This document shows, piece by piece, positions 8,179-43,907 of a stretch of 60,278 bases of DNA; position 1 is the stretch's first letter; each line of letters begins with the position of its first letter. Location: contig DJLT01000094.1 of the NCBI GenBank assembly GCA_002435145.1, positions 27,030-87,307 of the forward strand, given 5' to 3'. Position numbers and translations under genes: made by a program. Source of the stretch: Neptuniibacter sp. UBA6509 (GTDB lineage Bacteria; Pseudomonadota; Gammaproteobacteria; Pseudomonadales; Balneatricaceae). Below the pieces are notes generated by a model. That model saw only the letters and a list, made by a program, of their open reading frames with translations. It was not told the DNA's origin and ran no database searches.

Positions 8179-8853
8179 TTATGAGCCTACTAAAGCCAGC
8201 TGCTTACGCATCTCTGCGATTGTCGTCTGATAATCATCCGTATTAAAAATTGCTGAACCCGCAACAAAAGTGTCCGCACCCGCCTCAGCGATTTCACGAA
8301 TATTCCCTATACCAACACCACCATCAATCTCTAAGCGGATGTCATAACCACTTTTATCAATCAGTTCACGCGCTTGCCTAAGCTTATCTAGTGTACCTGG
8401 GATAAACTTCTGCCCACCAAAACCGGGGTTCACAGACATCAGCAGAATCATATCCACCTTATCCATCACATACTCAAGCTGGCTTAACGGCGTAGCTGGA
8501 TTAAAAACTAAACCTGACTTACAGCCACCATCACGAATCATCTGCAATGAACGATCGACATGCTCTGAACCTTCCGGATGGAAAGTAATATAGCTCGCAC
8601 CCGCTTCAATGAAATCACCGATAAGGCGATCAACAGGCTTAACCATTAAATGAACATCAATCGGAGCTGTTACACCATGCTTTCTCAAAGCAGTACAAAC
8701 CATCGGCCCGATAGTTAGATTAGGAACATAATGATTATCCATTACATCAAAATGAACAATATCCGCACCAGAAGCCAGTACGTTATCCACTTCTTCACCT
8801 AAACAAGCAAAATCAGCAGAAAGTATTGATGGGGCAATTTTAAAATCAGGCAT
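8179..8853 (-). CDS. rpe: Ribulose-phosphate 3-epimerase
   Basis: The 224-residue TIM-barrel enzyme interconverts D-ribulose 5-phosphate and D-xylulose 5-phosphate in the pentose phosphate pathway. Recognisable family motifs are APSILSADF at the N terminus, the metal-binding [12 protein letters not shown], the loop [10 protein letters not shown], and the phosphate-binding LEIDGGVG and AGSAIF. Length and motifs are complete. It is the first gene of the rpe-gph pair and is divergent from the DUF3530 gene, with roughly 90 bases shared for both promoters. Confidence 0.97.
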
Positions 8854-8942
8854 GGTTTATTGTCCGAAATAATAAATGTGAATGCTATTTTAACGGAGCA
8901 AGTATCTTGCTGTCAGCCAGCTTCTTACTCATAATCCACATT

Positions 8943-10076
8943 ATGAGATTTATTTTATCTACTTTTGCCACAATTCTGCTTCTTTCTTTGCCTAGCTATG
9001 CTGCCGAAGGTGAAGAAAACTCTAGCACTGAGAACACAGCTGAGGCTGGTAGCTCTCCTACACCTGCACCCCAAATACCGAGAACAGAACCCAATACAGA
9101 TAAAAACCGTATTCTAGAACTACTTAAAAGCCAAGATCCTGAAACCGAGATACTTCAACTAGATACCGGCAAAGAAGATGAAAAACTAATTGCCTTCTAT
9201 CGCATTGAAGGGAGCGGGATCAAACAGGGGGGCATCATCATGTTTCCTGACCAAAGCACTCATATGGATTGGCCTGATAAGATAAGCTACCTCAGAGAAG
9301 GCCTCTCAGATTATGGCTGGTATACACTGTCTATCTACCTTCCTCAGCCTGCAAGAAACCAAATCCCTAAACGAACCCTACCTGTTCTTTCCGCAGTAAA
9401 ACCGGACTCACCAAATGAAGCGAGCACAGAAGAAGGTAGTGGTGGTGAAGAACAAACAGAACAGAACCCTATCGAGGAGCAACCAGCACCTCCAGCCGAA
9501 GCACCAAACAACACAGACGCGGCTACGCCCGAAGATAATGCAGAACAAGAACCAACCGAGCCTTACCAAGATAGAACGAATCGCTTAGGCAAAGCAGCCT
9601 TCAACCACATGAAAGCCAGTGATGATCTAAACCGTTTTATTATTCTGGGGGTTGGCACAGGCGCTACATGGGCCGCCCAATACGTTCAACAAAACGAAAA
9701 GGAGCAAGATTTAAGGCTCCTAATGATCGACGCAAGAGACCCATTACAAGAGAATGCGCCCAAGCTACTCTCTCTGCTGCCAGAAATCTCAAGCACCATT
9801 ATCGATCTGCACCATAGCTCACGGATAACAAACGAAAATGATTTAACACCCGAATCACCTGCTAGACGTTTACGCCTCGCTAGACATAAACGAATGAATA
9901 ATTTCCATCAAAGCAGAATGCCCGAAGTTTCAGATAACTGGAAACGAAACAACTCTTGGCTCCTTAAACATACACGCGGCATGATCAACACTTACATTAT
10001 TAAAGCCGAACAAAACAAGCGTGCTATTCAGCTAGATAATAATCAAGTTACCGAGTCAGAAAAAGCGCCGGGGTAA
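8943..10076 (+). CDS. DUF3530 family protein, exported, alpha/beta-hydrolase-like
   Basis: From ATG 8943 the protein is 377 residues with a clear signal peptide (MRFILSTF, a hydrophobic core, then SYA-AE). A TTG at 8907 preceded by GGAG would add twelve residues, but that would place the Arg inside the signal, so the ATG is preferred. A block around residues 80-130 (GGIIMFPDQ, WPDKISYLREGL, YGWYTLSIYLP) matches DUF3530, which resembles alpha/beta hydrolases. A Glu/Pro/Ala/Thr-rich, probably disordered segment (about residues 155-210) then interrupts the fold before a second half with ILGVGTGA, a nucleophile-elbow-like position lacking the usual Ser. Function is unknown. It converges with djlA. 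Confidence 0.75.
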   Translation: MRFILSTFATILLLSLPSYAAEGEENSSTENTAEAGSSPTPAPQIPRTEPNTDKNRILELLKSQDPETEILQLDTGKEDEKLIAFYRIEGSGIKQGGIIMFPDQSTHMDWPDKISYLREGLSDYGWYTLSIYLPQPARNQIPKRTLPVLSAVKPDSPNEASTEEGSGGEEQTEQNPIEEQPAPPAEAPNNTDAATPEDNAEQEPTEPYQDRTNRLGKAAFNHMKASDDLNRFIILGVGTGATWAAQYVQQNEKEQDLRLLMIDARDPLQENAPKLLSLLPEISSTIIDLHHSSRITNENDLTPESPARRLRLARHKRMNNFHQSRMPEVSDNWKRNNSWLLKHTRGMINTYIIKAEQNKRAIQLDNNQVTESEKAPG

Positions 10077-28410: not shown

Positions 28411-30213
28411 ATGTCCGATACTTCGCAGCAACAGCAGTCTCGCCTCAAGGAATTGATCGCACGTGGTAAAGAGCAGGGCTACCTTACCTTCGCTGAAATC
28501 AATGACCATCTACCACAGGACATTGCCGATCCGGATCAAGTAGAAGATATTATCCGCATGATCAATGACATGGGTATTTCCGTGTCAGAAGAAGCGCCGG
28601 ATACTGAAACACTACTGATGACCGAAGGTGATTCCGCAGAAGTTGATGCGGATGAAGAAGCTGTAGCAGCACTTGCTGCTGTAGAGTCTGACGCCGGACG
28701 CACGACTGACCCTGTCCGCATGTATATGCGTGAAATGGGTACCGTTGAACTATTAACTCGCGAAGGCGAGATCAGCATTGCTAAACGAATTGAAGAAGGT
28801 CTTCGAGAAGTTATGTGCGCTGTTGCATGCTTCCCTGGCACTGTTGATGCCATCATTGAAGCCTACGACCTTACCATCCAAGAAGAAGGCCGCTTAAGCG
28901 ACATCTTCAGCGGCTACATTGATCCTGATGATGGCGTCATGCCTGTAGCTCCTCCTGCAGCACCTGCCGAAGATGACGATGAAGAGGAAGAAAAAGAGAA
29001 AGGCCCAGATCCTGAAGAAGCCGCACGTCGCTATGGCCTAGTTCGCGAAAAGCTGATTGCACTAAAAGACATTGTTGAAGAACACGGCCGTGGTAGCAAA
29101 GAACATAAGAAAGCCCAGTTCGAACTTGGCGAAGTGTTCTCTCCGATTAAACTTTCGCCTCGCTACTATGAAGCGCTAGTCAACCGTGTTCGCTCTACGA
29201 TTGAAAATATTCGTAAACAAGAACGCACTATCATGCGTATCTGTACACAACGAGCAAAAATGCCACGTAAAGCCTTTATTAAAGACTTCCCTGGCAACGA
29301 AACAAATACAAGCTGGTTCACCGATATTATTGATTCCAAGAGCGATTACTCGCGTGCAATCAAAACAAATATCATTGAACTTAAGCGTGCACAAAGAAAA
29401 CTTATTAATGCAGAGATCGATACAGGCATAGCCCTAACAGAGATCAAAGAGATTAACCGCGCAATGTCTATTGGCGAAGCAAGAGCACGCCGCGCGAAAA
29501 AAGAGATGGTTGAAGCCAACCTACGTCTTGTAATCTCCATTGCTAAGAAATACACCAACCGCGGTCTACAGTTCCTAGATCTAATCCAGGAAGGTAACAT
29601 CGGCCTAATGAAAGCGGTAGACAAATTTGAATACCGTCGTGGTTATAAGTTCTCAACTTATGCTACATGGTGGATCCGCCAGGCAATTACTCGTTCCATT
29701 GCCGACCAAGCACGTACCATACGTATTCCAGTGCATATGATCGAAACGATCAACAAACTGAACCGTATTTCCCGTCAGATGCTACAAGAGATGGGACGTG
29801 AAGCAACGCCTGAAGAACTTGCCGAACGCATGGAAATGCCTGAAGACAAAGTACGTAAAGTTCTGAAGATTGCCAAAGAACCAATCTCAATGGAAACACC
29901 AATCGGTGATGATGAAGATTCAAGCTTAGGCGATTTCATTGAAGACGTGACTATCTCCTCCCCAGTTGACTCAGCAACAGGCGAAGGCCTACGTGAAGCA
30001 ACAAAAGAGGTATTAGCCGGCCTGACAGTACGTGAATCTAAAGTTCTGCGTATGCGTTTCGGTATCGAGATGAATACAGACCATACGTTAGAAGAGGTAG
30101 GTAAGCAGTTTGACGTAACGCGCGAGCGTATTCGTCAGATCGAAGCCAAAGCCCTGCGCAAGCTTCGCCACCCTAGCCGCTCAGAGCACCTACGTGGTTT
30201 TATTGACGACTAG
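28411..30213 (+). CDS. rpoD: RNA polymerase sigma factor RpoD (sigma 70)
   Basis: The primary sigma factor of 600 residues is complete. Region 1.1 is at the N terminus ([19 protein letters not shown]), region 1.2 at [21 protein letters not shown], an acidic non-conserved region at about 170-230, region 2 at [17 protein letters not shown] with [13 protein letters not shown], region 3 at IRIPVHM, and region 4.2 at [17 protein letters not shown]. The length is close to E. coli sigma 70 (613). An AGGG ribosome site precedes the ATG. It ends the macromolecular-synthesis cluster. Confidence 0.98.
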
Positions 30214-30359: not shown

Positions 30360-30436
30360 GGGCCTATAGCTCAGTTGGTTAGAGCGCTCGACTCATAATC
30401 GATCGGTCGCAGGTTCGAGTCCTGCTAGGCCCACCA
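30360..30436 (+). tRNA. ileX: tRNA with CAU anticodon, probably tRNA-Ile2 (AUA-decoding)
   Basis: The 77-base cloverleaf has acceptor stem GGGCCTA/TAGGCCC, D arm GCTC/GAGC, anticodon loop CTCATAA (anticodon CAT), T arm GCAGG/CCTGC with TTCGAGT, and an encoded CCA. The ACTCATAATCG anticodon arm and GGTCGC variable region look like minor tRNA-Ile, whose C34 is changed to lysidine by TilS to read AUA, more than like elongator tRNA-Met. The position after rpoD matches what I recall for Pseudomonas. Elongator tRNA-Met remains possible. One mismatch closes the anticodon stem. Confidence 0.85.
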
Positions 30437-30882: not shown

Positions 30883-33800
30883 TCAGCTCGAGGATACATC
30901 AGCAGGTGCAACATTCCTTAAATCAAGCGTATAAGGATATTCATTACTAAAGACTTCCTCTTTAAGTGCCGCAGGCTTTGCAGGACGATCATCAGGTGAG
31001 AATTCGCGTACGACCCTTGCACCAGTGGTAGCCGTTATCTCTCCCGGAGAGTGTCCAAACTCATCATAACGAGAGACCCTTCTCGCTTCAGCTTCATGAC
31101 CATTAACTGGATAGGTATCATAACTCCGTCCACCCTGATGACTCACATGATAAGTACACCCACCTATACTCTGGCCGTTCCAAGTATCAACCAAGTCAAA
31201 GGTCAACGGCGCATGCACCCCAATAGTCGGATGGAGGGCTGAAGGTGGCTGCCATGCCCGATAACGAACACCTGCTACATATTCACCATTACGCCCAGTA
31301 CTTCGCAATGGCACACGATGGCCATTACAGGTCACGACATATCGTCCCTCATCTAGGCCTGAAAGCTTAATTTGCAAACGCTCCACAGAAGAATCAACAT
31401 AACGTGAAGTCCCAAAACTACTGATCTCTTCACCCAACACATGCCAAGGCTCAATAGCCCAACGCAACTCAATAGCCACATTATCAATCTGAACCCGACC
31501 ATAATGTGGATAACGAAACTCTTCAAAAGGCGCCAACCAATCAAGCTGGAAAGGTATGCCATGATCCTGAAGATCCTGAACCACACATTTCAGATCCGCC
31601 CACGCATAATGAGGCAACATAAACTTATCATGCAATTCAGTCCCCCAACGCGCTAATGGCTTGCTATAAGGCTCATCCCAGAACCGCGCCACCAAGCTAC
31701 GAATAAGAAGGGCTTGAACCAAGGCCATGCGTGAGTGCGGCGGCATTTCAAATCCACGAAATTCCAGTAAACCCTGCCGCCCACTGGCACTACCAGGTGA
31801 ATACAATTTATCAATACAAAATTCAGCACGGTGAGTATTGCCGGTCATATCAACCAACAGATTTCGCAAAATCCGATCCACTAACCATGGCTGATCAATG
31901 ATACCCTCAGGCATTTGCTTAAAAGCAATTTCCAGCTCATACAACATCTCACCTCGGGCTTCATCAACCCTCGGCGCCTGACTGGTAGGGCCAATAAACA
32001 TGCCAGAAAATACATAGGATAATCCAGGGTGATGTTGCCAATAGGTAATCAAGCTACGCAAAAGGTCCGGACGGCGTAACAATGGGCTGTCAGCCGGTGT
32101 ATTAGCCCCTATCGTAATATGATTACCGCCACCGGTACCGGTATGGCGCCCATCTAGCATAAATTTTTCAGTTCCCAGACGACACTCATGCGCGGCCTGA
32201 TAAAGTCGAGTTGTATTATCCACCAGCTCATCCCAACTTTCAGAAGGGTGGATATTAACTTCAATAACACCTGGATCAGGCGTCACTAATAATTTTTTAA
32301 GGCGACTGTCTTTTGGCGGCTCATAGCCCTCTAACACTATCGGCAATTTAAGCTCTGTTGCGGTTTTCTCTATGGTCGCAATGAGCTGAAGGTAGTGTTC
32401 AAGGTAGGTCATCGGCGGCAGGAACAAATACAACTTACCATCACGAGGCTCAATACATAACGCAGTACGTATCACCTCAACCTGATGCGTGGTTATAGCA
32501 TCCGATGCAGGCATCTCTTTAAGCTGCTCAACCGTTTCCGCGAACTGACTATGCTTAGGTAAAGGACGGGATAATTCAAAAGGATCAGATTCTGCTTGAA
32601 CCTCACGTTCCTCTTCAGTTTGATAGGGAAGAGAATCTAGCGGCAATCGGTACCCCAAAGATGAATCACCTGGGATTAACACCACCTGCTCGCGTCTCAT
32701 AGGCCAATGAGTTGAGTGCCAATTAGATTGTGAATAATCCCACGCAAGTGGCAAAACAAAACCACTTGGGCTATTTAAACCACGCTGCAGCAGCTTAGCG
32801 ATGCGTTTACGCTCTAGATCACTATCCAAATCAGCTTTTAATGGATCAATGTTACCCGGTAGATTTTGCTCTTTCCAAGCAAAATACAGCGCATCTTCAT
32901 AAGCTGGGAGGATAAATTTATTATCAAGCTGAAGGTTATTACACAACTGAGTAAAAAACTTTTCAGCAGAACTCAAATCATGACCATAATCCTGATCAAC
33001 TCGCGCTAACAATGACGGTTTAGACCATAAAGGCTCACCATCTTCACGCCAAAAACAACCTAGCGCCCAACGAGGGATCTCCTCACCGGGATACCACTTA
33101 CCTTGACCGTAGTGTAATAGGCCACCCGGGGCATATTCTTCACGTAAGCGCAGTAACAGATCTTTGGCTAATTTAAGCTTATCGTCACCCAATGCATCCG
33201 TATTCCACTGCGGAGATTCCATATCATCAACAGAAACAAAGGTTGGCTCCCCACCCATGGTCAAGCGAACATCCTGCTCATTCAGCTGCTGATCTATTGC
33301 AGATCCCAACTGCATAATATCTTCCCACTGCTGATCGCTATAAGGCTTAGTGACCCTTGGATCTTCTTGAATTCGCGTTACGCTGTTTTCATGTTCAAAT
33401 TCAACCTCACATGGGCTAGTCGCACCTGTCACAGGAGCCGCTGAAACTGGATCTGATGTACATGCCAAAGGAATATGCCCTTCTCCAGCAAACAAGCCCG
33501 ATGTTGGATCAAGACCGATCCAGCCGGCACCCGGAATATAAACTTCACACCAAGCATGTAGATCAGTGAAGTCCTCATCAGCTCCTGCTGGACCATCAAG
33601 AGGTTTTACATCAGGCTTGAGCTGAACTAGATAACCGGATGTAAAGCGAGCAGCCAAGCCTATTCGACGGAGTATCTGAACAAGTAACCATGCGGTATCT
33701 CTGCAAGAGCCTTTTTTACTAGATAACGTTTTCTCGCAAGTCTGAACACCGGGCTCCATGCGGATACCGTAATCAATCTCTTGCTCAAGTTGCTGGTTTA

Positions 33801-34242
33801 GCTCAACCAAAAAATCATTGATTGGTTTTGGCTCTTTATCAACCTTGCTCGCCCACTTCTTCAGTAACGGACCTTTTTCTGAGCACTTTAGATAAGGCAG
33901 CAGCTCCTTTTTTAACTGAGCATCGTACTTAAATGGATAGTTTTCAGCATATTCTTCAACAAAGTAGTCGAATGGGTTAATAACGGTCATATCCGCAATC
34001 ACTTCTACTTCAATGCTAAATTCATCTGTTTTTTCTGGAAAAACGAGTCTAGCCTGATAATTGCCAAAAGGGTCCTGCTGCCAGTTCAAGAAATGCTCTT
34101 CAGGGGTTATTTTGAGAGAGTATCCGTGAATATGTGTACGCGAATGAGGAGCTGGCCGTAAACGTAATGTATGCGGAAATAGATTAACTCTACGATCAAA
34201 CTTGTATTTTGTCTTGTGATTCAAGGCTACACGAATTGCCAT
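30883..34242 (-). CDS. Transglutaminase-like / DUF2126 fusion protein
   Basis: The 1119-residue protein has no signal peptide, so it is probably cytoplasmic. Residues about 1-150 match the bacterial transglutaminase N-terminal beta domain (FPHTLRLRPAP). The papain-like transglutaminase core follows with the triad Cys180 (KGSCRD), His229 (DLHAW) and Asp245 (LDPTSG). From about residue 310 to the end is DUF2126, with GGGNHITIGAN, WQHHPGLSYVFSGMF and LLEFRGFEMPPH. From memory, DUF2126 has been placed in the glutamine-synthetase-like carboxylate-amine ligase group, so this chain may both cut and form amide bonds. It is divergent from the ATP-grasp gene at 34703. The substrate is unknown. Confidence 0.88.
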   Translation of the reverse strand: MAIRVALNHKTKYKFDRRVNLFPHTLRLRPAPHSRTHIHGYSLKITPEEHFLNWQQDPFGNYQARLVFPEKTDEFSIEVEVIADMTVINPFDYFVEEYAENYPFKYDAQLKKELLPYLKCSEKGPLLKKWASKVDKEPKPINDFLVELNQQLEQEIDYGIRMEPGVQTCEKTLSSKKGSCRDTAWLLVQILRRIGLAARFTSGYLVQLKPDVKPLDGPAGADEDFTDLHAWCEVYIPGAGWIGLDPTSGLFAGEGHIPLACTSDPVSAAPVTGATSPCEVEFEHENSVTRIQEDPRVTKPYSDQQWEDIMQLGSAIDQQLNEQDVRLTMGGEPTFVSVDDMESPQWNTDALGDDKLKLAKDLLLRLREEYAPGGLLHYGQGKWYPGEEIPRWALGCFWREDGEPLWSKPSLLARVDQDYGHDLSSAEKFFTQLCNNLQLDNKFILPAYEDALYFAWKEQNLPGNIDPLKADLDSDLERKRIAKLLQRGLNSPSGFVLPLAWDYSQSNWHSTHWPMRREQVVLIPGDSSLGYRLPLDSLPYQTEEEREVQAESDPFELSRPLPKHSQFAETVEQLKEMPASDAITTHQVEVIRTALCIEPRDGKLYLFLPPMTYLEHYLQLIATIEKTATELKLPIVLEGYEPPKDSRLKKLLVTPDPGVIEVNIHPSESWDELVDNTTRLYQAAHECRLGTEKFMLDGRHTGTGGGNHITIGANTPADSPLLRRPDLLRSLITYWQHHPGLSYVFSGMFIGPTSQAPRVDEARGEMLYELEIAFKQMPEGIIDQPWLVDRILRNLLVDMTGNTHRAEFCIDKLYSPGSASGRQGLLEFRGFEMPPHSRMALVQALLIRSLVARFWDEPYSKPLARWGTELHDKFMLPHYAWADLKCVVQDLQDHGIPFQLDWLAPFEEFRYPHYGRVQIDNVAIELRWAIEPWHVLGEEISSFGTSRYVDSSVERLQIKLSGLDEGRYVVTCNGHRVPLRSTGRNGEYVAGVRYRAWQPPSALHPTIGVHAPLTFDLVDTWNGQSIGGCTYHVSHQGGRSYDTYPVNGHEAEARRVSRYDEFGHSPGEITATTGARVVREFSPDDRPAKPAALKEEVFSNEYPYTLDLRNVAPADVSSS

Positions 34243-34702
34243 TCCTTAATGCTCCTAAGCTGAACGCACTGTACCAAATTGCGAGATAAGCAAACTTTGA
34301 TCCTGTTTAATCCTTTATTAAGTACTCAATCTAATTACATGCCATATGGGCTAATAAAGCATTCCACAGCACTGCGATTATCATCCCTTAATATAGAGAG
34401 TGTTAAACAACTGCTTTATTACACAGCAAGCTTCAAGCCAATTCATATCAAGCACCGCAAAAGCCTATGATCGTAATACAACGCCATCACCCAGCTCATT
34501 AGCCCTATAGCCCCGTAAAAAAGCACATTAAATATTAATGGCCTAATATTTGCTCAATCCCCTTTAGATAAAATATTTATAGATTCTTCGGTCTATTAAT
34601 CAGGCCGAAGCACCAAGGCAGGGCCAACAAAAAGCCTTGCTCACCTTCGCCGCACTATAATAGTGCAGTCTTAAGTTTTCGGATATCAGGGAAACAAAGG
34701 GT
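34243..34702. promoter_or_regulatory. Divergent promoter region of the amidoligase cluster
   Basis: The 460-base gap between the two divergent arms carries three inverted repeats close to the ATP-grasp gene: CTTCGG/CCGAAG (34586-34610), CAAGGC/GCCTTG (34614-34639), and the palindrome GCACTAT-A-ATAGTGC (34652-34666). The palindrome contains a perfect TATAAT (34656-34661), so a protein bound there would cover the -10 box. The minus-strand frames here are not convincing genes, and I see nothing else in the first 300 bases. Confidence 0.5.
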
Positions 34703-36154
34703 ATGAATAGCATTTGGGATGGTTATGAATCGGTGTCACATTTTGACGAGCTAGTCTCGTCAAAAGGTAAACCGCGAGAAGCGGCGGACAAATTAGTAGA
34801 ACATATTGCAGACATGGAAGATGGAGAGCTAGATAAGCGCCGCCAAATGGCTGAAGCCACCATTCAGGAGATGGGGATATCTTTTACTGTTTATACTGAA
34901 GAGGGCAATATAGACCGTGCGTGGCCCTTTGATATTATCCCAAGAATAATTCCATCTGATGAATGGAAACAGGTCGCTGAAGGGCTTAAACAACGACTCA
35001 GTGCCCTAAATATGTTTATCGATGACCTTTATCATGAACAAAAGATTATTCGTGACGGTGTGGTCCCCGAACATGTAATCCAAGGCTCCCCAAACTTTCT
35101 TCCCGAATGCATTGGTGTCAATCCGGCTCATAGTGTCTGGGCACATATATGTGGTACCGACTTGGTCAGAGATGGTGACGGTAAGTTCTTTGTTCTGGAA
35201 GATAACTTACGCGTCCCTTCTGGGGTTTCCTACATGCTCGAAAACCGAGCTATTACTAAGCGCGTATTACCTGAAATTTTTGAGAAAGAGAACATCCTCC
35301 CATTAGACGATTACTGCGCTCACCTGTTTGATATGTTGGCCTCTTTATCTCCTAGGGATGTTGAAGAACCTGAAATTGTTGTCTTAACACCTGGCATTTT
35401 TAACTCTGCTTACTTTGAACATGCCTTTCTAGCTCAACAGATGGGAGCCGAGCTCGTAGAAGGCAGCGATCTATTCGTCGAAGATGATTGCGTATACATG
35501 AAAACAATTGCCGGGCCGGAACGCGTTGATGTGATCTATCGTCGAATTGATGACGCCTTTATCGATCCGGAAGTATTTAGGAAAGACTCAGCATTAGGTG
35601 TACCCGGCTTGATGAAAGCATGGAAAAAGGGCAATGTTGCTTTAGCGAATGCCCCGGGGGCAGGTGTAGCAGATGATAAGGTTGTTTATGCTTACGTACC
35701 AGCCATCATCAAATACTATCTTGATGAAGAACCGATTCTATCCAATGTTGAAACCTATCTGTGTGAAGATCCCAAACAAAAAGAGTATGTACTGGCTAAT
35801 CTGGATAAATTGGTTGTAAAACCAGCCAACGAATCAGGTGGCTATGGAATGCTCGTGGGGCCGCACTCGACCAAAAAAGAGCAAACTAAATTTGCTCAGC
35901 TAATTAATGAGAACCCACGTAATTATATCGCCCAACCTACATTGAACCTTTCTACCGCTCCGACACTGATAGGACAGGGAAAGTTAGAACCACGCCATTT
36001 AGATCTTCGCCCATTTATTTTACAGGGTAAAGACGCCTATGTGACGACCGGAGGGTTAACACGAGTTGCCATGAAAAAAGGCTCGCTTGTTGTTAATTCA
36101 TCTCAAGGTGGCGGTAGTAAAGATACTTGGATTGTTGATACGGAGACTGAATAG
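34703..36154 (+). CDS. Circularly permuted ATP-grasp protein (DUF404/DUF407 type)
   Basis: The 483-residue protein belongs to the circularly permuted ATP-grasp family 2, putative ATP-dependent carboxylate-amine ligases. Family landmarks are PFDIIPRIIPSDEW (about residues 74-87), GSPNFLPECIGV, the ATP-site stretch FFVLEDNLRVPSGVSYMLENR (given only as a landmark, about residues 160-180), VLTPGIFNSAYFEHAFLA, YRRIDDAFIDP, and VVKPANESGGYG. An AAAGGG ribosome site precedes the ATG. It is followed two bases later by an alpha-E gene, the standard partner. The product of the ligation is not known. Confidence 0.9.
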   Translation: MNSIWDGYESVSHFDELVSSKGKPREAADKLVEHIADMEDGELDKRRQMAEATIQEMGISFTVYTEEGNIDRAWPFDIIPRIIPSDEWKQVAEGLKQRLSALNMFIDDLYHEQKIIRDGVVPEHVIQGSPNFLPECIGVNPAHSVWAHICGTDLVRDGDGKFFVLEDNLRVPSGVSYMLENRAITKRVLPEIFEKENILPLDDYCAHLFDMLASLSPRDVEEPEIVVLTPGIFNSAYFEHAFLAQQMGAELVEGSDLFVEDDCVYMKTIAGPERVDVIYRRIDDAFIDPEVFRKDSALGVPGLMKAWKKGNVALANAPGAGVADDKVVYAYVPAIIKYYLDEEPILSNVETYLCEDPKQKEYVLANLDKLVVKPANESGGYGMLVGPHSTKKEQTKFAQLINENPRNYIAQPTLNLSTAPTLIGQGKLEPRHLDLRPFILQGKDAYVTTGGLTRVAMKKGSLVVNSSQGGGSKDTWIVDTETE

Positions 36155-36156
36155 TT

Positions 36157-37152
36157 ATGTTATCTCGTGTAGCCGAAAGAATTTATTGGGGTGCCCGTTA
36201 CCTAGAGCGTGTTGAGAACATTGCACGCCTAGTCAGCGTTTATGACAGTTTGCTGTTTGATCTACCAAAGAAAACCAATATCAGCTGGTATAACCTTATT
36301 CGTATCAACAGCAATGCTGATAGCTATACTGAACGCTATAAAGTTCGGGACGAACGAAATGTCGTGAAATTTTTACTAGCCGACGATTCCAATCCCTATT
36401 CGTTACTCTCATCTCTGAGGCACGCAAAAGAAAACATCCGCACAACAAGAGATGTAATACCTCAAGATACATGGGAACAAATTAACGAATTGGACCTTTA
36501 TGCTCGACACAATATTCAGCAAGGTATAAACCGAACCAATCGGCATAAATTTTTAAACACGTTAATACAGCGCTGCCAAGAAATAACCGGTCTATTCGAA
36601 GGCGCCATGAGCCGGGACGCCACATGGCAGTTTGTCGTCATTGGCAGAAATATTGAACGAGCAGATATGACGACGCGTATTCTTGATGCCGGCGCTTCCG
36701 TCATACTGCAACCAAATGAAGATAAACGCGTAAATCTTGACCAAGTCGTATGGGGGAACGTACTTCGCTCAGTTAGCGGCTATATGAACTACCGACGCGG
36801 AGTAAGAACAGCAGTTCAATCGCAAAAAGTTGCAAGATTTATGTTGGAAGATCCTCACTTTCCAAGAACCCTGCGTTTTTGCCTAAACGAAATACATGCA
36901 GCCGCTCAAAAATTACCACGCCCTGAAAATATTTTAAGGGGTATAGAAACGGTTAAAGAACTACACTACCCCTTAAATAATGGAGAACAGCTTAATGAGA
37001 CGTTTCGAGATCACCTCAACGATCTACAGATAAGCGTTTCTCAACTGCATGACGACCTTAGCGCTAACTGGTTCGCTTTCACTCCGTGTATGCGCAAGCT
37101 CGCTCTTCCAAAAAACAGCATAACGAGCATGCAAACATCGCAACAGGGATAA
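36157..37152 (+). CDS. Alpha-E domain protein (DUF403)
   Basis: The 331-residue, all-helical protein begins with the alpha-E signature MLSRVAERIYWGARYLERVENIAR. It continues with FVVIGRNIERADMTTRILD and RFCLNEIHAA, repeats of the Arg-Glu-rich helices that define the domain. Alpha-E proteins occur almost always with permuted ATP-grasp and transglutaminase genes, and their own activity has not been established. It starts two bases after the ATP-grasp stop. Confidence 0.9.
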   Translation: MLSRVAERIYWGARYLERVENIARLVSVYDSLLFDLPKKTNISWYNLIRINSNADSYTERYKVRDERNVVKFLLADDSNPYSLLSSLRHAKENIRTTRDVIPQDTWEQINELDLYARHNIQQGINRTNRHKFLNTLIQRCQEITGLFEGAMSRDATWQFVVIGRNIERADMTTRILDAGASVILQPNEDKRVNLDQVVWGNVLRSVSGYMNYRRGVRTAVQSQKVARFMLEDPHFPRTLRFCLNEIHAAAQKLPRPENILRGIETVKELHYPLNNGEQLNETFRDHLNDLQISVSQLHDDLSANWFAFTPCMRKLALPKNSITSMQTSQQG

Positions 37153-37245
37153 ACTTGACGAAAGCAAAATCGCTCCTTTAAAAGTCACAAATTTTATTTC
37201 TACATTTGCAGTGACACTGAAAGCAGATTTTTTACAAGTAGTCGC

Positions 37246-37251
37246 TATAAT
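37246..37251 (+). promoter_or_regulatory. Possible promoter -10 box before the ATP-grasp-alpha-E fusion
   Basis: A perfect TATAAT lies 22 bases before the GTG start of the fusion gene, inside the 120-base gap after the alpha-E gene. No good -35 is present. It suggests the second half of the plus-strand arm can be transcribed separately. Confidence 0.35.
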
Positions 37252-37272
37252 GTGCGCAACTAGAATCAAATA

Positions 37273-39846
37273 GTGGGCAAGTCAGTGCAGAATCAATCAC
37301 AATCAGTCATGAGTGAACCATCAAGTAACTTCTCAGTTCCCGATGGTCACTATAATGAGGCGTTTGATCTAGGTCTGCCTCGTTCGCACTGGCAATACCT
37401 ACTAGAAAGCATCGAAACCCTTGGACACGATGGGCTTCAGGACCGACATAAAAAAGCAGAACGCATATTACGTGATGATGGCGCTACCTATAACCTTGCT
37501 AGCGGGCCTTTAGACAGTAAAACCTGGGAACTAGACCCTATTCCAATGCTTATTCCAAGCGAAGAATGGAGTCTCATCGAAGCAGGTTTAACCGAACGCG
37601 CTGAACTTTTAAACCTCATTTTGAAGGACATTTACGGTCCCAGAGAGCTTATTCGTCAAGCCGTTATTCCGCCTGAAATCATTTATAGCCACCCGGGTTT
37701 CCTACGCCAGTGCCAAGATATTCAACTTCCCAATGATCATCAGTTGACACTTCATGCCGCAGATATGATCAGGGGAGCTGATGGTAAGATTATCATCATC
37801 GGAGACCGTACCCAGTCACCAAGCGGTGCGGGTTATGCGCTCGAAAACCGCACGGTCCTTTCTCGTGTGGTGCCCAGCCTATTTCGTGATAGCCAAGTAC
37901 ATCGGTTATCTCATTTTTTTCAATCTCTTAGAAATACACTCGCTTCGCTTGCTAAAGATAAAACCGATGATCCATTGATCGTCATCCTAACACCGGGTGC
38001 TTACAGCGAAACCTATTTTGAACATACCTATCTTTCCAACTACCTCGGCTACCCTTTGGTTCAGGGTAGTGATTTGATAGTTAGGGATGGATGTGTCTGG
38101 CTTAAGTCCCTAAATGGGTTAAGCAAAGTTAACGTTATAATGCGCCGTGTAGATGATATTTACTGTGACCCCGTTGAGTTAAAGTCTAATTCCTATCTGG
38201 GAATTCCTGGCCTCCTTGAGGTCATCCGCAACGGCAATGTTGCAGTCAGTAATCCGCTTGGTTCCGGCATTCTAGAAACGCCCGCTTTATTAAAATACAT
38301 GCCTCAAATCAGCCAGCACTTTCTGGGCCGCGATTTAAAACTACCGTCTGTCGATACTTGGTGGTGCGGCGATAAGAGTGATCTAAACTTCATTAAATCT
38401 AACTTGGATTCTCTTATCATTAAACCCGCTATGCGCAAGGCCAGCAGCCCCAGCGTATATGGCCATATGCTAACCGCGGAAAGCCGATCAGAAATACTGG
38501 CTCGTATCGAAGCATCCCCCCATGAGTTTGTGGCACAAAGCTATGTCACCCCTTCCTATCTGCCAGCGTGGCAAGATAATGAGATTCTGACACGACCTTC
38601 AATTTTTAGAAGTTTTACTGTATCGAATCAGGTGGCAAATCAAAGTACATATACCGTAATGGCCGGCGGCTTAACTCGGGTTGGCTTAAGCCAGCAAGCC
38701 ACCGTTGTGACGAATCAAGCGGGGTCACAAAGTAAAGACACCTGGATACTAGCATCCGAACCTGAAAAGCAGACCACTCTAATTGAAGATAACAGTGGCA
38801 TCATAAATCTAGCACACGAAGCTAATCTACCCAGCCGAGTCATTGAAAATCTTTTCTGGATGGGGCGCTACGCGGAAAGAGCCGAGTCCAACATGCGCTT
38901 AATGCGTACCGTTTTCATGCAGATGAATGGCATTGAGCCATTGCCCGAAAAATCTAAAAAGATGCTATTGCAGGCTCTATCTCAGCAAACCAATTGTCTT
39001 CCTGGTTTTATGGATATAGAGAAACTGGATAATCCCGACCAAGAGCTGATCGATATCATCTTAGATAGCAATCGCTCCAGCAGTATTAAATCCAGTTTAT
39101 TAGCACTCTTAACTTGTTCGGAAGAAGTCAAAGAGATGCTATCCGCAGACACACACAGAATCATTAACGATATTCGAGATAATCTGTTTGAACTGGAGCG
39201 TTCTTATATCAGTGGTTTACCCTCAGCGCCTGAGGAATCACTGGATCCACTAGTAACGACCTTGCTTGCGATGTCGGGTCTAAGCCATGAAAGTATGCTC
39301 CAAGGCGTTGGCTGGAAGTTTCAAGAGATTGGCCGCCGTACAGAAAGAGCGCTACAAACTGCTCGGCTCATTCAATCATTACTAACAACCGCACTGCCCC
39401 AATCGCAACAACAGCAAATTCTTGAATCAGTGCTTCTTAGTGTCGAAGCATTAATAACCTTCAGACGACGCTATCGTACACATACCGATGTTGCACACGG
39501 GTTAGAGTTACTGATGTTAGATGAAACTAACCCACGCTCTATCATCTACCAGCTACAGTGCCTTCTAAACCATTTTAAAGACCTACCACAACCTGATTCT
39601 CTAAAACCAGGCTTAAGTCCGGGTGAGAAGCGACTTATTCAATCACTCAGCAACATTCAAATGGCAGACCTTGATGCTGTATCAAGATATGACACAGAGA
39701 CTCAATCACGCGGCCAACTTCAACAACTACTAAAAGAAGTAATCAAGCACATTGAAGATTTCTCTTCTGTGCTCAGCGATCAATACTTTGATCACCAATC
39801 AGAGCCTCAGCAACTTGAAGCCACCCAAGGGATTGTATTTCTATGA
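37273..39846 (+). CDS. Fusion of permuted ATP-grasp and alpha-E domains
   Basis: The 857-residue protein joins an N-terminal permuted ATP-grasp domain (about residues 50-495; PIPMLIPSEEWSLIEAGL, GAGYALENRTVLSRV, VILTPGAYSETYFEHTYL, YCDPVELKSNSYLG, LIIKPAMRK) to a C-terminal alpha-E domain (about 515-835; RVIENLFWMGRYAERAE, WKFQEIGRRTERALQTARL). It thus repeats in one chain what the two preceding genes supply separately. Where the unfused ATP-grasp has VLEDNLRVPSG, this one has IIIGDRTQSPSG, a divergent nucleotide/metal loop. The start is uncertain: GTG 37273 or ATG 37309 (12 residues shorter), neither with a strong ribosome site. Its stop overlaps the next ATG (ATGA). Confidence 0.9.
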   Translation: MGKSVQNQSQSVMSEPSSNFSVPDGHYNEAFDLGLPRSHWQYLLESIETLGHDGLQDRHKKAERILRDDGATYNLASGPLDSKTWELDPIPMLIPSEEWSLIEAGLTERAELLNLILKDIYGPRELIRQAVIPPEIIYSHPGFLRQCQDIQLPNDHQLTLHAADMIRGADGKIIIIGDRTQSPSGAGYALENRTVLSRVVPSLFRDSQVHRLSHFFQSLRNTLASLAKDKTDDPLIVILTPGAYSETYFEHTYLSNYLGYPLVQGSDLIVRDGCVWLKSLNGLSKVNVIMRRVDDIYCDPVELKSNSYLGIPGLLEVIRNGNVAVSNPLGSGILETPALLKYMPQISQHFLGRDLKLPSVDTWWCGDKSDLNFIKSNLDSLIIKPAMRKASSPSVYGHMLTAESRSEILARIEASPHEFVAQSYVTPSYLPAWQDNEILTRPSIFRSFTVSNQVANQSTYTVMAGGLTRVGLSQQATVVTNQAGSQSKDTWILASEPEKQTTLIEDNSGIINLAHEANLPSRVIENLFWMGRYAERAESNMRLMRTVFMQMNGIEPLPEKSKKMLLQALSQQTNCLPGFMDIEKLDNPDQELIDIILDSNRSSSIKSSLLALLTCSEEVKEMLSADTHRIINDIRDNLFELERSYISGLPSAPEESLDPLVTTLLAMSGLSHESMLQGVGWKFQEIGRRTERALQTARLIQSLLTTALPQSQQQQILESVLLSVEALITFRRRYRTHTDVAHGLELLMLDETNPRSIIYQLQCLLNHFKDLPQPDSLKPGLSPGEKRLIQSLSNIQMADLDAVSRYDTETQSRGQLQQLLKEVIKHIEDFSSVLSDQYFDHQSEPQQLEATQGIVFL

Positions 39847-40724
39847 TTTACCGCATCCGACATATCACAGAATATACCTACAACAGACCTGTTTCGCTTT
39901 GCTACAACCAAGCTCACCTTCTACCTCGCAGTACAGACAATCAAATTTGTCAGAACATGCAGGTAAACATTACTCCTAAGCCGGACTATTTTTCCCAGCG
40001 AGAAGATTACTTTGGCAACAACTGCTTCTACTTTTCACTGCAAAAGCACCATAAGAAATTAGTAATCGACGTTACCACCGAGATAGATACCCAATCCGAG
40101 CGTGCATCCCTGGATCTTGATCTGGGTAAAACATGCTCTCAGGTAAAACAAGAATTAGAACTATCGACTCTGCCTGAAGTTATCGAAGCCAAAGAGTTTT
40201 TGTTAGATTCACCAATGATTAAAATCAGCAGTGAATTGAAGGACTACGCACAAGAACTGTTTGATGAGAATCGCCCTCTATGCTCAGCAGTACGCGCCCT
40301 AACCACTAAGATATTCAACGAATTCAAATATGACCCAAGTTCAACCAACGTAGCCACCCCACTACATGAAGCGTTAGAGAAAAAAAGCGGGGTATGTCAG
40401 GATTTCGCCCATATTGCTATCGGCTGTTTAAGAGCAATGGGGTATCCAGCACGCTATATTAGTGGCTACTTAGAAACCTTACCCCCACCGGGAGAAGAAA
40501 AACTAATAGGCGCTGATGCCTCCCACGCATGGTTTGCTGTCTACTCCCCGGGTGAAGGCTGGTTTGAGTTTGATCCAACTAATGACGACATCCCCGCGGA
40601 TCAGCACATAACAACAGCTTGGGGGCGTGATTACTCTGATGTAACCCCACTGAGAGGGGTTGTTTTTGATGGAGGGAACAGTCAGGAGCTAAGCGTATCT
40701 GTGGATGTAAGAAGGCTTTCCTAA
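39843..40724 (+). CDS. Transglutaminase-like cysteine peptidase family protein
   Basis: The 293-residue cytoplasmic protein has the bacterial transglutaminase N-terminal domain (about 1-100, RIRHITEYTYNRPV) and the core with triad Cys185 (SGVCQDF), His228 (DASHAW) and Asp244 (FDPTND). It overlaps the ATP-grasp-alpha-E fusion by four bases (ATGA), so the two are translationally coupled. In this setting it may hydrolyse, or transfer through, the isopeptide made by the ligases, but that is inference. Confidence 0.9.
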   Translation: MIYRIRHITEYTYNRPVSLCYNQAHLLPRSTDNQICQNMQVNITPKPDYFSQREDYFGNNCFYFSLQKHHKKLVIDVTTEIDTQSERASLDLDLGKTCSQVKQELELSTLPEVIEAKEFLLDSPMIKISSELKDYAQELFDENRPLCSAVRALTTKIFNEFKYDPSSTNVATPLHEALEKKSGVCQDFAHIAIGCLRAMGYPARYISGYLETLPPPGEEKLIGADASHAWFAVYSPGEGWFEFDPTNDDIPADQHITTAWGRDYSDVTPLRGVVFDGGNSQELSVSVDVRRLS

Positions 40725-41191: not shown

Positions 41192-41851
41192 CTAGCGCAC
41201 AAACCGCTTTTGGGCAACATTCCTAAACAAAACTATAGCACTACCAATCACAGCACCGAAGAAAATCGATACAAGGAAAGCAAGTGCAGGCCTAGGTGTC
41301 TTTTTTATTGCTACTGACCCAAAAGATAACGCTTTCGAACCACTCTGAATCTGCATAATAGTTCTTTTGGCATTAAGAAGATTATTTACAGCTCTCTCTG
41401 TACCAAGCAATTCATTAGATAGTTCAGTTTCAATGACTTCTAGTTCATACATAGCTTCTTTTAAAATGAGCTGCGTTAACTTGTCATTCATCATAGAAAG
41501 CTCTTCTATATAACTTTCCGCCTTTTTGTATTTATCAGTCTTCAAAGACAAATACCTACCGCTCTTAACGCTCTCCCAGCGCTCTTCCGAATAAGACATA
41601 AAAATTGCTGGCAGACCTAGTTCTAAACACTCGATATGCATGTCACAGAGCTGCTGATCTCCAATCATTCTCATATTGGTACTAACAGGGATAGAAACGG
41701 TATATACTGGTTTTGAAAACTTTAAGTACCCCCAATTCAACACTAAACATATAGAAATACTAATAACTATAAGCCATTTCCCCTTCCACAAAACCTCAGC
41801 GATATCAAACAAATCAAATTGTCCCTCACGCATCAAATTTTCAGTTGTCAT
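41192..41851 (-). CDS. wzz: Wzz/chain-length determinant family protein
   Basis: The 219-residue inner-membrane protein has two transmembrane segments (about residues 28-46 and 190-212) flanking a periplasmic, helical region, the topology of polysaccharide co-polymerases. The Pro-rich motif before the second segment (KKTPRPALAFLV) is the Wzz signature. It would set the length distribution of the polymer made by Wzy. It is shorter than typical O-antigen Wzz (about 325 residues), so the periplasmic part is reduced. An AGGCGAG ribosome site precedes the ATG. It is the last gene of the operon. Confidence 0.82.
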   Translation of the reverse strand: MTTENLMREGQFDLFDIAEVLWKGKWLIVISISICLVLNWGYLKFSKPVYTVSIPVSTNMRMIGDQQLCDMHIECLELGLPAIFMSYSEERWESVKSGRYLSLKTDKYKKAESYIEELSMMNDKLTQLILKEAMYELEVIETELSNELLGTERAVNNLLNAKRTIMQIQSGSKALSFGSVAIKKTPRPALAFLVSIFFGAVIGSAIVLFRNVAQKRFVR

Positions 41852-41945
41852 TTATCTCGCCTACAAAAAAAATAATCGCCAAAACAGCAATACTTAAAGC
41901 CACCAACAGCTTCCCAAAATTTAATATGTACACCAATCAAAGAAG

Positions 41946-43895
41946 CTAATGCAAAGGAGCAGAGATGTCTTCATCAGCAGCTCTTACAGCTAACCAATCG
42001 ACAACAGGTGAACTTGGCTTATAACCACGAACAGCACTTTCCAATATAGCTCTGGCCGCGACAGCATCACCGGAAACTTCAGCCTCCTCTAATTTTAAGA
42101 TGACATCCAATAATATTTCATGTTTAAGTACCTCCTCTCTTGCCATCATAATCTTTGAATGATCTGTACCTATAACATCATCACCAATCAAGAGCTCTTC
42201 ATATAATTTCTCGCCAGGTCTCAAGCCACTATATTCGATTGACACCCCATTTGGATTCTCTTTATCTTTCACTTGACGCCCCATGAGATGAATCATTCGT
42301 TTCGCTAAGCTTGTAATTTTGACTGGTTCCCCCATATCCAACACAAACACATCCCCTCCTTTGGCCATAGAACCTGCCTGAATAACCAATGTAGCAGCTT
42401 CAGGTATTGTCATAAAAAATCGTGTAATCTCAGGATGAGTAACCGTAATAGGCCCCCCCGCCCCTATTTGATTACGAAAAAGAGGAACAACTGAGCCAGA
42501 AGAACCTAGAACATTACCAAAGCGAACCATTGAAAAAACTGTGCTGTGACCCCTTTGAGCTAAATCCTGCAAAATCAATTCAGCTAACCGCTTTGTCGCA
42601 CCCATAACATTTGTGGGTCGAACTGCCTTGTCGGTAGAAATCAAAACAAAACGTTCCACAGAAGCCTTCACTGCGGCCTCAGCAATAATTTTTGTTCCTA
42701 TAGCATTATTACGAATACCCTCGAATATATTATGTTCAACCATAGGAACATGTTTATAAGCAGCTGCATGATAGATTGTGTCAATCTTAAATTTCCTGAG
42801 AACTCTATCAATACGCTCAATATCTAAAACCGAACCTAAAACTGGATACACATCGATACTTATCCCTAAACTGCCTGCCAACTCCCTAAGCTCATGTTCT
42901 ATGCTATATAAAGCAAACTCGCACATTTCATATAAAATTATAGATTTAGGATCGTTAACTAGCACCTGCCGAGATATCTCTGCTCCTATTGACCCCCCAG
43001 CCCCACTAATAAGAACCGCCTTATTACTAATACTTCTAGAAACTAATTCCACATCTGCGGGCACAGGGTCCCTGCCCAATAAATCCTCTAATTCAACATC
43101 CCGCAAACTATCAACTGATTCCCCGGATACGATTTCAGACATCGGAGGCACAGTCTTAACATAAACAGGGAATGCAGATAAAGACTCTAAAATTACACTT
43201 TTCTGAGAGAGGCTTGCCGAAGGTAGAGCCAATAACACATGTGTAATTCCCTGGTCCCCGATCAATACAGACAATTGCTCAGGACTGTATACTGGTAGCC
43301 CATTAACGGTACTACGATGCAACCCCTGATCATCATCTATAAAACCTACCGGCATATATTCCGCCCCATTTACCAAAGCAGCTGCCAACTGAACTCCTGA
43401 CCCCCCTGCACCATAAATAAGAACTGGATCTTTTTCTACATAATAGCGTAACAACCAATGATAATAGCTACGAACTAAAAATCTACTCCCTCCAACATAA
43501 ACTAATGCTGCAAGTGCAAAATTAACTGGTACTGAACGCGGGAAAGGCTGTACATTTAAAACAATTGCAGCAACCCAAAGAAAGGCAGCTAAAATAACAA
43601 CCCCTTTAATAACGGAAAAAATTGCTTGGGCACCCATGAACCGAACAACCGCACGGTAAAGCCCAAGCCGCATAAAAACTAGCAGACCTACAATTGGAAG
43701 CATAATAAACAAAGGCCAAGCCGGCTGAATAAATTCAGCTGGCCACCATTCAGCTAGACGAAGGGCGAATCCAGACCAAAGCGCCAGAGGAAGAGCAATT
43801 AAATCAGCGAGAACCATGATTGTCTTCTTACTATTTCTCCCCAATGCCATAATTCTGTAGTGAGGGGATTTAACAGGGGCACTAAACCCATTCAT
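41946..43895 (-). CDS. wbpM: WbpM/FlaA1-like UDP-GlcNAc 4,6-dehydratase, membrane-bound
   Basis: About 649 residues with four N-terminal membrane segments (first 150 residues), a CoA-binding-like domain with GAGGSGVQLAAAL, and a C-terminal SDR domain with SGAGGSIGAEISRQ and STDKAVRPTNVMGATKR. In the latter Met replaces the usual catalytic Tyr, as in WbpM. It would make UDP-4-keto-6-deoxy-sugar from UDP-GlcNAc. ATG 43895 is chosen since GGAG lies six bases upstream; ATG 43898 and TTG 43907 are in frame. The 4-keto product would feed the aminotransferase, the next gene upstream. Confidence 0.88.
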   Translation of the reverse strand: MNGFSAPVKSPHYRIMALGRNSKKTIMVLADLIALPLALWSGFALRLAEWWPAEFIQPAWPLFIMLPIVGLLVFMRLGLYRAVVRFMGAQAIFSVIKGVVILAAFLWVAAIVLNVQPFPRSVPVNFALAALVYVGGSRFLVRSYYHWLLRYYVEKDPVLIYGAGGSGVQLAAALVNGAEYMPVGFIDDDQGLHRSTVNGLPVYSPEQLSVLIGDQGITHVLLALPSASLSQKSVILESLSAFPVYVKTVPPMSEIVSGESVDSLRDVELEDLLGRDPVPADVELVSRSISNKAVLISGAGGSIGAEISRQVLVNDPKSIILYEMCEFALYSIEHELRELAGSLGISIDVYPVLGSVLDIERIDRVLRKFKIDTIYHAAAYKHVPMVEHNIFEGIRNNAIGTKIIAEAAVKASVERFVLISTDKAVRPTNVMGATKRLAELILQDLAQRGHSTVFSMVRFGNVLGSSGSVVPLFRNQIGAGGPITVTHPEITRFFMTIPEAATLVIQAGSMAKGGDVFVLDMGEPVKITSLAKRMIHLMGRQVKDKENPNGVSIEYSGLRPGEKLYEELLIGDDVIGTDHSKIMMAREEVLKHEILLDVILKLEEAEVSGDAVAARAILESAVRGYKPSSPVVDWLAVRAADEDISAPLH

Positions 43896-43907
43896 CATAA
43901 ACTCCAA

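Follow-up and report, generated by a model that had tools for sequence, protein, structure and literature searches.

The window analysed here is a stretch of 60,278 nucleotides from the gammaproteobacterium Neptuniibacter sp. UBA6509 (GenBank assembly GCA_002435145.1, contig DJLT01000094.1, positions 27,030 to 87,307 of the forward strand), and coordinates count from its first letter. The source genome is a 3.88-Mb draft that is 91% complete. This text concerns a cluster of five intact open reading frames (ORFs) at 30883-40724, in which four families, circularly permuted (CP) ATP-grasp, alpha-E, transglutaminase and DUF2126, are all encoded and linked. On the minus strand, TG-DUF2126 (30883..34242, 1119 aa) has an N-terminal transglutaminase-like module (Bact_transglu_N and Transglut_core in Pfam) fused to DUF2126 (1345 bits). 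The plus strand carries AG1, a stand-alone circularly permuted ATP-grasp (34703..36154; CP_ATPgrasp_2, 570 bits), AE1, a stand-alone alpha-E protein (36157..37152; Alpha-E, 269 bits), AG2-AE2, an ATP-grasp fused to an alpha-E domain (37273..39846; 480 and 228 bits), and TG2, a stand-alone transglutaminase-like cysteine hydrolase/transferase found by Pfam (39843..40724). AG1 and AE1 are 2 bp apart, a 120-bp gap precedes AG2-AE2, and the start of TG2 overlaps the stop of AG2-AE2 by 4 bp; the plus arm reads as an operon. An earlier note, made from the letters of the DNA alone, had recognised this five-gene set in two divergent arms. The ORF check and Pfam bear it out, and in the profile searches that the note had proposed every named domain lies far above the cut-off. 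No signal peptide-like N-terminus was seen by eye among the five proteins, as the note had also stated. Searches of NCBIfam and PADLOC found nothing at E<=0.001.

Is this gene set common in other bacteria? I compared 99 loci, the window included; L044 and L045, which lie on the same contigs as L032 and L038, were left out. The commonest order is AG1>AE1>TG-DUF2126>AG2AE2>TG2 in a single direction (24/99). Thus, the divergent arms in the window are a local rearrangement. The exact order of the window was found in L032 only, and L033 and L039 have another divergent order. All five genes lie within the fetched stretch in 44 of the 99 loci; contig ends cut many of the loci short. The five-gene set is a known, widespread cluster. 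DUF2126 was found in 92 of 299 genomes sampled from the phylum, and each of the 92 also has alpha-E, a linkage far beyond chance; the earlier note had stated that these families co-occur. At least two alpha-E copies are present in 86 of the 92, and the 79 genomes with alpha-E and without DUF2126 have one copy in 68 cases and two in 11. Thus, where alpha-E is present twice, DUF2126 tends to be present too. AE1 and AE2 are the only alpha-E copies found in a search of the genome under study.

Within the genus, DUF2126 was found in six of ten other genomes. In three congeners (G002, G003 and G004), AG1 and TG-DUF2126 share a contig but are separated by about 40 kb, and searches of three others (G006, G009 and G010) found no AG1, AG2 or DUF2126. 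The closest named relatives of TG-DUF2126 are Neptuniibacter proteins, 89% and 84% identical in the best-matching segment. Synonymous change is saturated in nine of ten comparisons; AG1 against its L032 counterpart gave a dN/dS of 0.024. The surroundings of the cluster differ in L032, whose neighbours resemble genes on another contig of the genome under study; thus, it has apparently changed its location in the course of the genus's evolution. In the Neptuniibacter loci L034, L036 and L038, the stretch read has TG-DUF2126 but no other gene of the cluster. A plasmid can carry the cluster, since the five genes are annotated as a set, in the commonest order, on a 90-kb plasmid of Enterobacter roggenkampii (L127). 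No DNA match to AG1 was found in E. coli genomes.

The two ATP-grasps are not equivalent. In a comparison of 60 AG1 with 65 AG2 sequences (AG1 numbering), D153, E166, D167, N168, K373, G379, G380, G382 and D434 are invariant in AG1 (60/60). The putative metal/ATP residues D153, E166, N168 and K373 and the GGYG loop are all there in the AG1 of the window, and the solved AG1 relative 3n6x retains the E-x-N motif. In AG2, the N168 column has no Asn in 65 sequences (R 55, H 4, others), and the E166 column has Glu in a single sequence (D 23, G 19, S 11 and A 7, with that Glu among the five others). The D153 column reads D in 40, N in 24 and T in 1, the equivalent of K373 is retained in 61 of 65, and the GGYG glycine loop and D434 are lost. 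Further matches from genome-wide searches, with sequences outside the first set, follow the same pattern: E and N are kept in 26 of 26 AG1, and neither residue is present in any of 12 AG2. Similarly, AE1 has E92 and N93 in 61/61 sequences, R91 in 57 sequences and R95 in 59, with Lys in place of R91 in the window, and its family-wide motifs are E92-N93 and W-E-x-x-N. At the R-E-N-x-R columns AE2 has a different commonest residue each, in at most 26 of 62 sequences; G163, E167 and P236 are shared and held in AE1 and AE2 alike.

Thus, the earlier note was right that two permuted ATP-grasp domains are present, as Pfam confirmed for both, but not in treating their sites as alike. Its suggestion that the duplicated set serves two ligation steps or two substrates fares poorly, with E-x-N, GGYG and the invariant Asp lost from AG2 and the AE1 motif unconserved in AE2. 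The ATP site is not lost from both domains, AG1 being complete. Only AG1 looks competent, judged by its residues, and a degenerate partner, a predicted pseudo-ligase, is the better reading of AG2-AE2, because E-x-N, GGYG and the Asp are lost and the R-E-N-x-R of AE1 is not kept in AE2. It is doubtful that AG2 is instead a functional ligase which handles metal differently and acts on another substrate. In favour of such an enzyme, the K373 equivalent and D153 (40/65) are retained, Asp stands at the E166 column in 23 sequences, and AG2 is constrained rather than decaying because it has its own conserved D-R-T-Q stretch in place of E-D-N-L-R. Against this stand the absent E-x-N pair and glycine loop and the divergence of AE2 from the AE1 motif. 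If AG2 is a pseudo-ligase, it should need AG1, and genome co-occurrence was searched for this, with bit score and frame length separating AG1 from AG2. Of 18 genomes picked because their AG2 has no AG1 next to it, 15 encode AG1 at another place; in 21 other genomes, AG1 occurs without AG2 in six and neither occurs in three. The AG2 sequences form one clade with support 1.0 on a long branch (0.86).

What would AG1 ligate? In a weak profile alignment (P=0.005), its D153, E166, N168 and K373 stand opposite D318, E330, N332 and K533 of E. coli GspS, presumably the metal/ATP binders of that enzyme. AG1 alone against the GspS family gave P 0.13, and the AG1 profile against the single E. coli GspS sequence gave nothing. 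This alignment is consistent with a small-molecule pathway, in which the ligase makes an amide or peptide metabolite (glutathionylspermidine-like or a gamma-glutamyl amide) and the transglutaminase-like enzymes hydrolyse it, with the logic of the bifunctional GspSA, for nitrogen storage, scavenging or signalling. 3n6x is labelled a putative glutathionylspermidine synthase (label only). In L034, TG-DUF2126 lies beside genes for a cupin-HTH regulator, a Gln-synt_C protein, a class-II amidotransferase-like protein and a FolD-like protein, a set which I take to resemble the N-methylglutamate route; the Gln-synt_C-like gene recurs in L036 and L038 (one of the three was Pfam-checked). On the other hand, PF03738 (GSP_synth) has no Pfam match among the five proteins or in the genome under study, and a nitrogen-storing product would be unexpected in starvation. 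I regard this pathway as a tentative alternative, possible yet somewhat improbable. Ligation of the RimK/Rlo kind, an idea drawn from the available part of PMC12239564, was set aside on finding no RimK-family match among the five proteins in Pfam.

The earlier note had described two transglutaminase cores with intact Cys-His-Asp triads, one fused to DUF2126, and alignment upholds this: C180, H229 and D245 of TG-DUF2126 are conserved in 98, 98 and 99 of 99 aligned sequences, and C185, H228 and D244 of TG2 in 61/61. DUF2126 is a putative amidoligase according to its Pfam description. Outside the transglutaminase part, no solved relative was found at E<=1 apart from two marginal matches (E 0.15). 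A fold comparison with GCS2 was dropped because there were too few GCS2 relatives (8/76 genomes, one strong match). The name DUF2126 is unused in the literature found by family terms.

The 460-bp gap between the arms holds two sigma54 -24/-12-like boxes. Boxes were scored against TGGCACG-N4-TTGCA with GG and GC required (maximum 12). The box of TG-DUF2126, TGGCTTGAAGCTTGCT (34425..34440, minus strand, score 9.5), ends 182 nt before its start, and the box of AG1, TGGCCTAATATTTGCT (34539..34554, plus strand, score 8.5), ends 148 nt before AG1. Counterparts of the former, TGGCTTA then TTGCT with score 8.5, lie at -176 to -202 in the congeneric L032, L034, L036 and L038. Those of the latter, TGGCCTG-N4-TTGC(T/C), lie about 136-158 nt before AG1 in seven congeneric genomes (L193-L197, L032 and L035), the distances in further genes running from the start of the profile match and not from the start codon; this box is also in place in L041 and L028, of two other genera. 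Thus, the putative boxes are conserved in relatives.

A box was called strong at a score of at least 9.5, a cut chosen after the window sites were seen, so that further AG1 genes serve as the check. The counts cover gene runs with a summed score of at least 400 and regions of at least 150 nt, again with L044 and L045 left out. Strong sense boxes precede 29 of 49 AG1-led units (antisense 3/49) and 16 of 61 TG-DUF2126-led units (antisense 4/61), as against 17 of 374 control genes of the same loci (antisense 12/374). Some control matches may themselves be nitrogen genes, such as the three Gln-synt_C-like genes of L034, L036 and L038. At a cut of 10, the AG1-led count is 15/49 against 9/374 for controls, and the excess before TG-DUF2126-led units is gone (1/61). 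Thinning AG1 at 80% identity left a strong box in 16 of 31. Among further AG1 genes with regions of at least 150 nt, 13 of 26 have a strong box, with one in antisense (Fisher 8e-10). A relaxed pattern, TGGC-N7-TTGCW, picked after the window boxes were seen, occurs 90 times in the 3.88 Mb and 46 times in a backwards control; two of its matches, correctly divergent, lie inside the gap between the arms.

It was found that the gap also holds NtrC-like sites. A perfect palindrome with the NtrC half-site spacing GCAC-N7-GTGC, GCACTATAATAGTGC (34652..34666, plus strand), is the sole match to this spacing in the 60 kb (0.42 expected), and a weaker site, GCACCAAGGCAGGGC (34610..34624, plus strand), scores 9/12. 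These palindromes lie 170-226 bp upstream of the TG-DUF2126 box, a usual enhancer position. The N7 spacing emerged from a scan of all spacings from 3 to 19. Upstream of boxes, it occurs in 11 of 55 regions, as against 0 to 2 for other spacings from 3 to 15; this count takes boxes scoring at least 9 (and so excludes the AG1 side of the window) and unthinned relatives, of which L087 and L088 are near copies. In leaders, it occurs in 4 of 27 (other spacings 0 to 2). An NtrC consensus of at least 10/12 is present in 16/49 AG1-led and 13/61 TG-DUF2126-led units and in 31/369 controls of at least 200 nt. Exact palindromes in the leader are also found in L009, L032, L035 and L041, and NtrC is encoded in the genome under study (762 bits). 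The site quality in the window is comparable to that of the glnA region of the same genome, where one box scores 9 and two NtrC-like sites score 9/12 each. The predicted AG1 leader (34556-34702) has an unusually stable fold (z -3.8, 0/200 shuffles as stable) with several predicted hairpins, one of which is the palindrome; it has no Rfam family.

Others have shown, for sister operons, induction in nitrogen limitation, dependence on NtrC, and ATP hydrolysis by one ATP-grasp; what follows is limited to the available parts of the cited papers. In Burkholderia cenocepacia, I35_5080-5083, whose products are DUF404/407, DUF403 and two transglutaminase-like proteins, are named as targets of both sigma54 and NtrC, the values in the table running from -6.0 to -9.4 (PMC5491218). 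Pseudomonas putida PP_2686-2688 were 11- to 37-fold up in nitrogen limitation, which was attributed to NtrB/NtrC, and PP_2685 (Anbu) was 1.1- to 4.8-fold up (PMC7801951). Nitrate gave higher levels of PP_2685 and PP_2688 than ammonium did (log2 4.4 and 4.0), and a response to nitrogen limitation was seen for the PP_2688 promoter (PMC8050072). A correlation of urea-metabolism domains with Bact_transglu_N, DUF403, DUF404 and DUF407 was seen in marine metagenomes (PMC3597751). The Yersinia bercovieri ATP-grasp frees phosphate from ATP (PMC6376114). A structure paper on Anbu places it in the same operon, describes the genes as non-essential without stress, and cites up-regulation of Anbu in nitrogen-limited P. 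putida (PMC5666114).

It is very improbable that the promoter signals are coincidental and that the cluster has a housekeeping or envelope role. Singly, the window sites are weak; the boxes have two mismatches each, and 43 such matches occur in the 60 kb where 32 are expected. In contrast, the boxes are replicated in the further AG1 genes, the palindromes are spacing-specific, and the available parts of the papers above contain NtrC data on sister operons.

The neighbouring genes bring in a proteasome relative. An Anbu-like family is the most frequent partner of the cluster (21/99 loci); its median distance to a cluster gene is 35 bp, and 17 of the 21 are on the same strand. Those of its members that were scanned match Proteasome in Pfam (5 of 119 neighbours, plus two proteins scanned apart). 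Pfam was run on 119 of 313 neighbours; among the first 25 of the 109 families matched, Proteasome alone has more than two members, and no nitrogen family recurs. In Acidithiobacillus caldus, ntrC-glnL, an Anbu-like peptidase, TG-DUF2126, AG1 and AE1 lie together; its TG-DUF2126 is apparently interrupted, since it was matched in two pieces over a longer stretch. In L058, an ammonium transporter precedes the cluster. The nitrogen-gene neighbours are suggestive only, because this comparison has no control. A protein family of about 410 aa adjoins the cluster in eight loci, seven times on the same strand (L115 at 8765-9997, L087, L088, L102, L105, L106, L107 and L121), and the L115 member has no Pfam match. 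In Caballeronia (L129), a putative zinc metallopeptidase lies between AE1 and TG-DUF2126.

Anbu and the predicted nitrogen-limitation control of the cluster might together point to protein tagging like that of the Pup-proteasome. The ligases would attach a small peptide or amino acid to proteins, the transglutaminase-like enzymes would trim or remove it, and the tagged proteins would be degraded for nitrogen by Anbu where it is encoded and by another protease in the Neptuniibacter host. Mycobacterium smegmatis deficient in pup/proteasome grows more poorly in nitrogen limitation, according to the available part of PMC8223512. However, Anbu was not found in the 91% complete genome under study, where the sole Proteasome match is HslV beside HslU. 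Y. bercovieri Anbu had no peptidase activity or specific partner binding in the available part of PMC6376114, and the five cluster proteins, to which that search was limited, gave no Pfam match to the Pup-ligase/Dop family. Tagging therefore seems rather unlikely.

The explanation that I favour, at a probability of roughly 0.6, is a system for making and breaking amide bonds in the cytoplasm, switched on through sigma54 and NtrC in nitrogen limitation. It builds on the domains, the conserved and lost residues, the gene order and the conserved promoter-like signals observed here. AG1 would be an active ATP-grasp ligase that turns a carboxylate into an acyl phosphate and couples it to an amine, working with AE1. 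AG2-AE2 would be a catalytically degenerate, re-purposed copy, which probably pairs with AG1-AE1 as a scaffold, regulator or substrate holder, with DUF2126 probably serving as a further ligase, unrelated to AG1. The amides so formed may then be hydrolysed or transferred by the two transglutaminase-like modules, so that bonds are made and cut in a cycle, and the physiological use is most likely nitrogen recycling or amide turnover in starvation. The nitrogen role appears well supported by analogy; I infer the reactions, the pairing of AG1 with AG2, and the induction in the Neptuniibacter host. The earlier note had the cluster build and trim a tag in the cytoplasm. Making and breaking of amide bonds in the cytoplasm stands, but the peptide or isopeptide tag remains a guess, and the earlier reading lacked the nitrogen-regulation signals and the published NtrC and nitrogen-limitation data on sister operons.

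Several observations weigh against this explanation. On the promoter side, the AG1 box of the window (8.5) falls below the counting cut of 9.5, and no strong box was found before 20 of 49 AG1-led and 45 of 61 TG-DUF2126-led units. Strong sense boxes precede one of 17 AG2-led units (TG2-led 0/1). The NtrC-like sites of the window are downstream of the AG1 box, whereas such sites usually lie upstream. Only two places in the genome under study match the strict NtrC pattern, and the second palindrome (G000:C44:18101-18115, L232) has no obvious nitrogen gene within 3 kb. A PP_2685 promoter construct was unresponsive to nitrogen limitation in the available part of PMC8050072, and glutaminase, urate oxidase, glutamine synthetase and glutamate dehydrogenase have single matches among the 119 neighbours. 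On the enzyme side, the loss of metal ligands in AG2 is read from sequence alone, and the hhalign probability of the GspS match is 6.8%. Three of the 18 AG2 genomes, all metagenome-assembled, have no AG1, and one congener (G001) has AG1 and AG2 without DUF2126.

Around the cluster, a tRNA-Met (30360-30436), the only Rfam match in the window, lies between the cluster and an rpoD-like gene (28411-30213). On the 3′ side (41192-43907) are surface-polysaccharide genes (Wzz, Polysacc_synt_2), in a stretch lower in G+C (about 0.39-0.41 vs 0.43-0.46).

How does the cluster compare with known systems? Iyer et al. (2009) reportedly described a peptide-synthesis/modification cluster of CP-ATP-grasp, alpha-E, transglutaminase and DUF2126. 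The window shares with it the domain set, the linkage and the general prediction of amide ligation and cleavage, and differs in its divergent gene order. To my knowledge, no product of a DUF2126 cluster is known. In E. coli GspSA, an ATP-grasp ligase is paired with an amidase, which resembles the pairing in the cluster, and the D, E-x-N and K are co-linear in the weak alignment; GspSA differs in its Pfam families and in its hydrolase. The Anbu operon (P. putida PP_2685-2688; Y. bercovieri) also has ATP-grasp, alpha-E and transglutaminase in one operon, and the available text on P. putida reports its induction in nitrogen limitation. In contrast, Anbu was not found in the Neptuniibacter genome, and the cluster adds AG2-AE2 and TG-DUF2126. 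The B. cenocepacia H111 set (I35_5080-5083) has DUF404/407, DUF403 and two transglutaminase-like proteins, one of them large, as in the cluster; it has four genes, and the set as listed in the available source has no fused AG2-AE2. The Pup-proteasome differs in that no Pup-ligase match was found among the five cluster proteins, and no 20S or Anbu protease was found. Its logic of a ligase and an isopeptidase-like enzyme and its role in nitrogen starvation are alike, and are offered only as a possible working likeness. An unlikely extension is a Gram-negative counterpart of pupylation, in which an asymmetric ligase, made up of AG1/alpha-E and its dependent pseudo-ligase, and DUF2126 would put a small amide-linked tag on proteins in nitrogen starvation, the transglutaminase-like enzymes would edit the tag, and recycling would proceed with Anbu or another protease. 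As far as the literature searched shows, the apparent degeneration of AG2-AE2 and the wide occurrence of the promoter signals are new. With DUF2126 in 92 of the 299 genomes, this is an orphan system of broad spread, and nitrogen limitation as a growth condition, together with the prediction that AG1 works and AG2 does not by itself, makes a long-standing orphan directly testable.

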